Positions 55,761 through 60,230 of a stretch of DNA of 64,000 bases are shown here, in pieces; within the stretch, counting starts at the first letter, position 1; every line of letters starts with the position of its first letter. The notes under the pieces were generated by a model. That model was not told the DNA's origin and ran no database searches. It was given only the letters and a program-made list of their open reading frames with translations. Made by a program: the position numbers and the translations under genes. Origin of the DNA: Sphingomonadales bacterium (GTDB taxonomy: Bacteria; Pseudomonadota; Alphaproteobacteria; Sphingomonadales; Sphingomonadaceae); assembly GCA_027486415.1 (NCBI GenBank), contig JAIXPC010000002.1, forward strand, positions 868,001 to 932,000, read 5' to 3'.

Positions 55761-56030
55761 ATGGCCAATACGCCCCAGGCTGAAAAGCGCATCCGCCGCA
55801 ACGACCGTCGCGCCGCGATCAACAAGGCGCGCGTCAGCCGCATCCGTACCTTCGTCAAGAAGGTCGAATCGAGCCTCGCCGCCGGTGATGCTGCTGCCGC
55901 TGCCGCTGCTCTGCAGGCAGCTCAGCCGGAGATGATGCGCGGTGTCGCCAAGGGAGTGCTCCACAAGAACACCGTCTCGCGCAAGATCAGCCGTCTTGCC
56001 GCTCGGGTGAAGGGTCTGGCGACCGCCTGA
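55761..56030 (+). CDS. rpsT: 30S ribosomal protein S20
   Basis: The 89-residue basic helical protein reads [36 protein letters not shown], then [20 protein letters not shown]. It binds 16S rRNA early in 30S assembly. AGGAACTC directly before ATG 55761 fixes the start, dropping four residues from the track entry. A strong terminator follows, and dnaA lies downstream, an arrangement seen in many alphaproteobacteria. Confidence 0.97.
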
Positions 56031-56073
56031 TGGTGCCCCGCTGGCGTGTCGCCAGCGCGTGATGTGATCGACG

Positions 56074-56110
56074 AAAACGGGGTGCAGCGGCCGGCTGCGC
56101 CCCGTTTTGC
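56074..56110 (+). terminator. Rho-independent terminator of rpsT
   Basis: AAAACGGGGTGCAGC and GCTGCGCCCCGTTTT form a 15-bp stem with one G-T wobble and a 5-nt loop, 44 bp after the rpsT stop. Built-in T-run on the plus strand. Confidence 0.88.
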
Positions 56111-56696
56111 GTTGCGTGCGTGCCACACGCCCGATTCGCCCGACCAGGGTGTGATTCGTTCATCAGGAGCGATTCGGTGTGCCGGGAGCCGGCAGATGTG
56201 CTCTAACAGGAACATTGCCGCCAGAAGCGTTGCCCGGCGGCACTTTTTTGAACCAGTTTGACTGCCGAATCCGCGGCGGCCGCAGTCATCGAAGTGTCAG
56301 CATTTTGACACAAAAAATCCAAGCAGTTAGCCACGCCGCTTGCCGAATCGGGGAAAATGCCGAATCCGATTCTGACTGTGAATTCAGTGCTTTGAGGGCG
56401 CCTCCTTCGTAAGTCTGCCGATTGCGTGTCAACAGCTTTATTTGCCGTTGGACGGAATTTGGCCGCTTGCGGACAACGGTTGCGGCTGCTTATTTGGCGC
56501 TCGGTTTGGGTCGGCCGGCGTGATGAACGCCAACGGGTCCAATCGCAGATGATGCATGGCATCCTGGGTTCGACGCAGAGCCCAGCAGGACAGATGTGGC
56601 CGCATACGCCCGCTTGTCCGCGATGTCCGTGTGAATGGTGGGTTCTATCTTCGCTGCGGCGGGGGAAATGCCGGGGGCGGCGGAAGGAAAGGGTGC
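56111..56696 (+). promoter_or_regulatory. dnaA upstream region with seven GANTC (CcrM) sites
   Basis: No gene is supported here. GANTC occurs at 56133, 56153, 56171, 56267, 56344, 56362 and 56368, seven sites in 240 bp where about one per 340 bp is expected at this base composition. Three lie in GATTCG units. In Caulobacter, methylation of GANTC by CcrM modulates dnaA transcription. No consensus DnaA boxes (TTATNCACA) were found, so an origin is not claimed. Confidence 0.6.
56294..56311. repeat. Inverted repeat GTGTCA-N6-TGACAC upstream of dnaA
   Basis: Perfect 6-bp arms around GCATTT, in the middle of the GANTC cluster and about 390 bp before dnaA. The size suits a dimeric regulator. It is followed by AAAAAATCC. 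Confidence 0.5.
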
Positions 56697-58094
56697 GTGT
56701 CGACGGCTGCTGCATCATTGCTGCCTTCCGGTAATGCAACGCTGGCGCATGGCGGGCCGATGGAATCGACCGCCGATCGCGACACGTGGTTCCGCGTCCG
56801 CTCTGCGCTGAAGGCCGATGCCGGCGATCACAGCTATGAAGCCTGGCTGGCACCCTTGGTGCTGGTTGGCTGCGATGGCGATACCGTGCGACTCGCGGCT
56901 CCCTCGCCATTTGCTGCGGACTGGGTGACCAGCCATTACGGCGATCTGCTGCGCCGGCACTGGTCGACGCACCAGCCTGCGATACGCCGTGTCGCCGTGC
57001 AGACCGGCACTGCCGGCCCGGCCACGCCGCTTGTCGGCAGGGCCGCCGCGCCGCCCGCCGTCAGCCAGCCGCTGCCGGTCGATGCACGCTACAGCTTTGA
57101 CAATTTCATCGTCGGCAAGGCCAATGAACTGGCCTACAACGCCGCGCTGTCGATGGCCGAACCGGGCATGCCGGGCTTCAATCCGCTGTTCCTTCACGGC
57201 ACCACCGGGCTCGGCAAGACCCACCTGATGCACGCCATCGGCAACGCCTACCTCGCCCATCACCCGCAGGGACGTGTTGCCTATCTTTCGGCGGAAAAAT
57301 TCATGGTCGAATTCATGGCTGCCCTGCGCGCCAAGGATACGATCAGCTTCAAGCAGCGGCTGCGCTCGGTCGATCTCCTGATGATCGACGATGTGCAGTT
57401 CATCGCCGGCAAGGAATCGACCCAGGAAGAATTCTTCCACACGATGAACGAGATCATCGGTGCCGGGAAGCGGCTGGTGATCACGGCCGATCGTTCACCC
57501 CAGAACCTGGAAGGCATCCAGGATCGCATTCTTTCGCGCATGGCCTGGGGCCTTGTGGCCGACATCAACCCGGCCGATTACGAGCTCAGGCTCAACATCC
57601 TGCACGCCAAGGTGGCGGCACTGGGTGCTCGCGTGTCGGTGCCGGATGACGTGATCGATTTCCTAGCCCGCAAGATCACCGCCAACGTGCGCGAACTGGA
57701 AGGGGCGCTGAACCGCGTCACCGCGTTTGCCACGCTGGTCGGCAAGCCGGTCACCCTGGAATTCACCCGCGAAACGCTGGCCGACCTGCTGCGCGCGCAC
57801 GAGAAGAAGCTGACGATCGACGAGATCCAGCGCAAGGTGGCTGATTATTATGGACTGAAGGTCGCTGACCTGTTGTCGGAGCGCCGTGCCCGCGAAGTGG
57901 CGCGTCCGCGCCAGATCGCCATGTATCTGGCCAAGAAGATGACCCCGCGATCGCTGCCCGAGATTGGCCGCCGCTTTGGCAAGCGCGACCACACCACGGT
58001 CATGCACGCCGTCAAGCGCGTCGAGCAACTGCGCGCCGACGACCGCGAGATCGACAGCGACGTCGCGACGCTGACCCGCCTGCTCGACGGCTGA
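56697..58094 (+). CDS. dnaA: Chromosomal replication initiator DnaA
   Basis: The AAA+ initiator opens the origin. Domain I is [28 protein letters not shown], followed by a short linker. Domain III has Walker [17 protein letters not shown] and Walker [26 protein letters not shown]. Domain IV contains the DNA-binding signature [29 protein letters not shown] 56697 has AAGGA eight bases upstream and gives 465 residues; ATG 56760, 21 codons later and without a good Shine-Dalgarno, is the alternative. The track start at 56556 is not supported. Confidence 0.97.
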
Positions 58095-59845: not shown

Positions 59846-59900
59846 TCGCAGCCGGGCGCGCGAATGGCAGCGTCATTTGCCGACTTCGGACGGCGAGCGA

Positions 59901-59928
59901 AAAGGGCGGGGCATTCCCCGCCCTTTTT
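59901..59928 (+). terminator. Rho-independent terminator after the SDR gene
   Basis: AAAGGGCGGGG-CATT-CCCCGCCCTTTTT forms an 11-bp stem with T-run on the plus strand. Confidence 0.92.
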
Positions 59929-59994
59929 GATTCGTCTGTCAGCATGGCATTGCCAACGCCCATTCGTTCGCCGTGCCCTCACGCCCACCCCCAG

Positions 59995-60016
59995 CCCCTC
60001 CCGCTTGCGGGAGGGG
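59995..60016. repeat. REP-like palindrome CCCCTCCCGC-TT-GCGGGAGGGG
   Basis: A perfect 10-bp inverted repeat with a 2-nt loop. From general knowledge, this motif is dispersed in intergenic DNA of many sphingomonads and neighbouring proteobacteria. It lies in a 385-bp gene-free gap. Confidence 0.65.
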
Positions 60017-60036
60017 AGTCGCAGGCGCCAATCCAG

Positions 60037-60145
60037 TTTTGACACTTTTGCTGATTTCCGGCGTGTGGGGGTTCAAAGGCACCCGGCTGCGAACTACCCC
60101 CTGTTTTCAAAGAGCAATCATGTCGATTCAATTTTGACACTTTTG
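60037..60145. repeat. Pair of 14-bp direct repeats TTTTGACACTTTTG flanking 81 bp
   Basis: Identical copies at 60037-60050 and 60132-60145, each preceded by a CAGT/CAAT-like tract. The 81 bp between them contains no ORF of note. The structure could be a mobile-element footprint or a paired regulator site; neither is proven. The rest of the 59929-60230 gap shows no gene. Confidence 0.6.
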
Positions 60146-60230
60146 ACGAATCGCACCTGACCTGTAACATTGTCAGCCAGACTGCGCTCGACGTCCTCAT
60201 CATGCCACGCGCGACCCGTGTAGGACAGGC

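Follow-up and report, generated by a model that had tools for sequence, protein, structure and literature searches.

Seven GANTC sites lie within 240 bp in the dnaA leader of this Sphingomonadales genome (56133, 56153, 56171, 56267, 56345, 56362 and 56368; 56133-56372). With a probability of about 0.62, we read them as an array through which CcrM and GcrA control the transcription of dnaA, in an expanded form of the scheme known from Caulobacter. Judged from the sequence, the cell probably links the expression of dnaA to DNA methylation and to the cell cycle.

The GANTC cluster in the dnaA leader

We found that the leader is bounded upstream by a strong hairpin (56069-56114, forward strand; fold -35.2 kcal/mol, z=-4.1), the probable terminator of the upstream neighbour rpsT. 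The gene rpsT encodes the 30S ribosomal protein S20 (55764-56030, forward strand; TIGR00029, E=1e-23), and the aligned Sphingomonas leaders have an equivalent hairpin plus a T run after it. The dnaA gene (56697-58094, forward strand; TIGR00362, E=3e-157) probably starts at the GTG at 56697. This start is preceded by the Shine-Dalgarno sequence GGAAGGAAAGGG (56682-56693) and is shared by the Sandarakinorhabdus relatives in the alignment. The cluster is located 325-564 bp upstream of it, just past the rpsT terminator.

The distal group (56133-56176, forward strand) consists of three direct GATTCG repeats at 56133, 56153 and 56171, spaced 20 and 18 bp apart, all of which match YGAKTCG. The proximal group (56345-56372, no strand assigned) holds the sites at 56345, 56362 and 56368, and close relatives have one or two sites here. 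The remaining site (56267-56271, no strand assigned) is in CGAATC context; it is absent from the closest relatives, and leader L012 has one nearby. Two TGTCA/TGACA elements in the leader are more strongly conserved than the GANTC sites. The first is the block GTGTCAgcattttGACACAAAAAATCCAA (56294-56322, forward strand), a TGTCA inverted repeat; 9 of the 11 relatives in the alignment have TGACACAAAAAATCCAA without a mismatch. The second is the GTGTCAA...TATTT element (56426-56443, forward strand), conserved across the order. One of the two is an inverted repeat joined to AAAAAATCCAA.

The window, meaning the whole 64-kb stretch of DNA analysed, contains 57 GANTC (0.89/kb) compared to 207 expected from shuffles, an overall depletion of the motif. 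The cluster reported by the first-pass annotation is real: in 20,000 random placements of the 57 sites, none reached seven per 240 bp, and the next-densest 240-bp stretch (59929-60152) has four. Its density of 29/kb is approximately 33-fold over the window mean. We also sampled the genome in stretches totalling 464 kb (17% of the genome), with the ccrM stretch deliberately among them. With rough gene calls, GANTC occurs in this sample at 1.79/kb between genes and 0.92/kb within them, and the cluster stands approximately 16-fold over the intergenic rate. Thus, the enrichment claimed earlier was correct, and the figure of roughly tenfold understated it.

Among 148 intergenic stretches of the 464-kb sample, the dnaA leader ranked second in GANTC density and the ccrM leader first, and all others held at most four sites. 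The claim that such density is confined to the dnaA leader therefore holds within the window but not genome-wide, the ccrM leader being denser (nine sites in 194 bp). The second-densest GANTC stretch of the window (59846-60230, four sites) falls between an SDR-type gene and a pterin carbinolamine dehydratase-like gene, both recognised by eye.

Six of the seven sites, not three as first counted, are in GATTCG/CGAATC context, compared to 19 of 50 elsewhere in the window (Fisher p=0.02). The YGAKTCG match is found in 4/7 cluster sites versus 11/50 elsewhere (p=0.07), and these four are placed well upstream of the inferred dnaA promoter.

Conservation of the leader and alternative readings

The nearest relatives of the DnaA protein belong to Sandarakinorhabdus (Sphingomonadales). 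The comparison covered 75 measurable dnaA leaders of sphingomonads, all preceded by rpsT; as these leaders are related to one another, counts over them are not independent. All 75 carry at least two GANTC, with an average of 6.58/kb compared to 1.93/kb in flanking DNA. Of 16 palindromes built like GANTC, GANTC itself has the highest leader/flank ratio (3.4); AANTT (3.0) and TGNCA (2.7) come next. The ratio for GANTC partly reflects a bias that holds between genes in general. Leaders of the Sandarakinorhabdus group have the conserved TGACACAAAAAATCCAA block between a distal group, with up to three GATTCG at intervals of approximately 20 bp, and a proximal one. At dnaA, and nowhere else in the source genome, GATTCG forms the triple pattern, which four other genomes of the genus (G100, G104, G107, G117) likewise have in their dnaA leaders. 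The number of seven is peculiar to the source genome, with 3 to 7 in close relatives. Conservation in relatives, on which the first-pass annotation had let its reading depend, was thus found for the distal group and a proximal site, and the closest relatives lack 56267 and some of the proximal sites, 2-3 of the seven in all. A search of open-licence papers returned no paper on GANTC in Sphingomonadales dnaA leaders.

GANTC clusters in the apparent Polymorphobacter leaders L024, L025 and L060 were rejected as leader clusters because they lie mostly within the 5' coding part of dnaA, a different place at the same gene. The first ~130 bp of dnaA hold 5-7 GANTC there, mostly in frame (Glu-Ser and Asp-Ser codons).

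Sphingomonas-type leaders have TGTCAA 40-41 bp before TTGATC, with a CTAAAA-like box 17 bp further on. The window keeps the same 40-bp gap between TGTCAA (56427) and TTGCGG (56467). From this alignment with TTGATC-N17-CTAAAA, at equal distance from TGTCAA, we infer a dnaA promoter at 56467-56495 (forward strand), with the -35 box TTGCGG (56467-56472) and the -10 region GCTTATTT (56488-56495). A sigma-70 consensus scan of the dnaA leader gave no promoter site. After the box, 25 of 27 anchored Sphingomonas-type leaders carry a promoter-proximal GANTC, in 23 of them 47-50 nt from the start of the -35 box. The central base of this site is free (A in 14, T in 9, C in 2) and the next base varies too, while the GANTC core is kept, which points to selection on the fixed-distance site as a methylation site. 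In the leader of the window, no GANTC follows the inferred promoter, so this promoter-proximal site is absent. Its array lies entirely upstream, approximately 130-370 bp before the inferred transcription start, and would have to act at a distance or on an unrecognised upstream promoter.

These patterns bear on whether the repeated GATTCG serves mainly as an operator for a protein that is not GcrA, the overlap with GANTC being incidental or secondary. We consider this unlikely. The prevalence of GATTCG in the cluster agrees with it, as do the three distal direct repeats, whose spacing of approximately 20 bp (two helical turns) is expected for cooperative binding on one face. GATTCG also makes up 57% of leader GANTC compared to 39% in flanks, and the distal Sphingomonas site has T as its central base in 21 of 27. 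However, an operator does not account for the promoter-proximal Sphingomonas site, which keeps only the GANTC core, nor for the first place of GANTC among the 16 palindromes. The GATTCG preference is also shared by GcrA activation in Caulobacter (PMC7987155). The earlier suggestion that GATTCG may also be bound by a protein agrees with the YGAKTCG/YGAKTCK context in which Caulobacter GcrA is reported to activate transcription (PMC7987155). Brevundimonas GcrA showed no extended-motif preference (PMC7987155), which counts against the proposed GcrA control.

It is quite improbable that the sites have no function, having gathered by chance in a long, AT-richer leader because GANTC is depleted in genes and tolerated between them. 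The intergenic rate is indeed about twice the coding rate, similar biases occur across Alphaproteobacteria (PMC3973325), and the 2-3 unconserved sites would be expected. But neutral accumulation would have to explain a cluster approximately 16-fold over that same intergenic rate, a sample in which, ccrM excepted, no other intergenic stretch exceeds four sites, and site positions that are conserved.

We give still less credence to a shielded array, in which a MucR-like or other protein, perhaps a reader of the TGTCA...TGACA block, would keep CcrM away and create an on/off methylation switch rather than a replication timer. Caulobacter and Sinorhizobium have MucR-shielded groups of GANTC, such as the four sites in the CCNA_00169 promoter (PMC5172544), and a strongly conserved, unexplained TGTCA...TGACA block lies inside the array. 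Unlike the MucR-shielded examples, however, the essential dnaA gene would be expected to be steadily expressed.

CcrM, GcrA and the position of the origin

The genome encodes a CcrM orthologue with a methyltransferase domain (PF01555, E=2e-66) and a RAMA domain (PF18755, E=3e-15), which matches Caulobacter CcrM (CcrMI, 6pbd) at E=1e-156. The presence of ccrM, the first thing to check for CcrM-dependent control, was thereby established. A GcrA orthologue is encoded as well (PF07750, E=1e-43; 7ye1 GcrA, E=7.7e-32). The genome has a second PF01555 methyltransferase (L002, G000 C13:142710-143648; E=4.5e-26, open frame of 597 aa).

The nine GANTC of the ccrM leader lie directly upstream of the gene (L104:9647-9840; G000 C13:382.65-382.84 kb). 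In the family, 30 of 30 ccrM leaders carry GANTC arrays (2-11 sites, spacing often 29/20/19 bp), with a density of 20.2/kb versus 1.3/kb, and ccrM leaders across the class have an O/E of 3.1 compared to 0.48 in the rest (29 genomes). In an evenly drawn class sample, dnaA leaders showed no GANTC enrichment: the O/E was 0.85 where CcrM is encoded (20 genomes) and 0.72 where no clear CcrM is (9 genomes). The dnaA array therefore looks like a trait of Sphingomonadales rather than of the whole class, and the ccrM array is wider and stronger. Both leaders of the source genome place a dense array before a gene of the CcrM network, the ccrM array being denser and less GATTCG-biased. Caulobacter ccrM is under methylation control, as far as its citation in PMC3973325 goes.

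The network genes do not all follow this pattern, since gcrA has no GANTC within 1.3 kb upstream in the source genome. A ctrA-like gene, assigned by its MRVLLIEDD start alone, has six GANTC within ~400 bp upstream (L169:640-1069, G000 C8), of which three seem to lie inside the reading frame that precedes the gene. Two GANTC were observed 45 and 192 bp ahead of the probable start of ftsZ (L172, G000 C14:731790-732725). Caulobacter ftsZ is likewise known for upstream GANTC. Sphingomonadales ctrA promoters contain one to five GANTC within 300 bp (PMC8116508). They share with the array the order, a master cell-cycle gene and multiple sites, whereas the array is at dnaA, is locally denser and lies farther from the start codon.

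Beside hemE, an intergenic region contains two perfect TTATCCACA DnaA boxes and four GANTC (L091:9753-10019; G000 C14:342.75-343.02 kb). On the same contig, the GC skew of the sampled stretches switches sign between ~353 and 420 kb. This region is the probable oriC, approximately 580 kb from dnaA (924.7 kb, same contig). At E. coli oriC, the origin is sequestered by GATC and SeqA. That the array belongs to an origin in the dnaA leader and acts by such sequestration, as dense methylation sites beside dnaA might suggest, is rejected as extremely improbable, since the leader has no DnaA box within one mismatch and the hemE region, with its perfect boxes near the skew change, is the candidate.

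In Caulobacter, dnaA sits near the origin. The ori-proximal timing of that species finds no counterpart here, and methylation at dnaA would mark a passage of the fork that comes later in S phase; with the origin probably at hemE, the mark would have a different timing meaning. In Sphingomonadales, dnaA is not conserved near ori (PMC8116508).

Proposed control of dnaA by CcrM and GcrA

We propose that the seven sites are targets of CcrM and form an array within the control region upstream of dnaA. The GcrA of Caulobacter has a preference for GANTC in its methylated form and makes contact with sigma-70 RNA polymerase. Late in the cell cycle, CcrM would methylate both strands of the array, and passage of the fork would leave all seven sites hemimethylated until CcrM returns. 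GcrA would read the methylation state and change the activity of the dnaA promoter, coupling DnaA synthesis to replication. For the source organism, we infer that the sites are methylated, that GcrA binds and where the promoter lies; that full methylation activates dnaA is an assumption carried over from Caulobacter. Sphingomonas sp. AAP5 has m6A at GANTC (PMC8067484), and GANTC methylation enhances GcrA binding (PMC3667746). Transcription of Caulobacter dnaA is affected by the methylation state, according to its citation in PMC3973325.

As far as the CcrM-dependent dnaA promoter of Caulobacter crescentus is described where it is cited (PMC3973325, PMC2217572), it shares with the source genome GANTC upstream of dnaA together with CcrM and GcrA. 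The source genome differs in having more sites (seven), arranged in two groups around the conserved TGTCA block, in the ~580 kb between dnaA and the probable oriC and in the missing promoter-proximal site. Promoters of the GcrA/CcrM regulon with YGAKTCG/YGAKTCK (PMC3667746, PMC7987155) have a gcrA gene and this context in common with the array, 4/7 sites being YGAKTCG, but these examples have one to few sites compared to seven here, where GcrA binding is predicted. CcrM-dependent control "as in Caulobacter", as suggested by the first-pass annotation, therefore stands as to the presence of ccrM and gcrA and the conservation of the sites. It does not extend to the position of dnaA, the layout of the leader or class-wide enrichment.

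A further-reaching idea, to which we give low odds, is that the ori-distal dnaA array of Sphingomonadales is a multi-site timer of replication passage. Many hemimethylated sites would be read cooperatively and, with the ccrM array, would determine how soon dnaA could be transcribed anew; this would take the place of the ori-proximal logic used by Caulobacter.

Methylation timing of dnaA expression is known mainly from Caulobacter. The dnaA leader pairs with the ccrM leader as the two GANTC-densest intergenic stretches of the sample, and the conserved sites offer concrete predictions, namely the fixed promoter-proximal GANTC in Sphingomonas and the distal triple in Sandarakinorhabdus. Should the proposed mechanism hold, the CcrM link has been retained in Sphingomonadales with dnaA remote from the origin. 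The same mark must then report a later event, and the number and spacing of the sites become testable variables.
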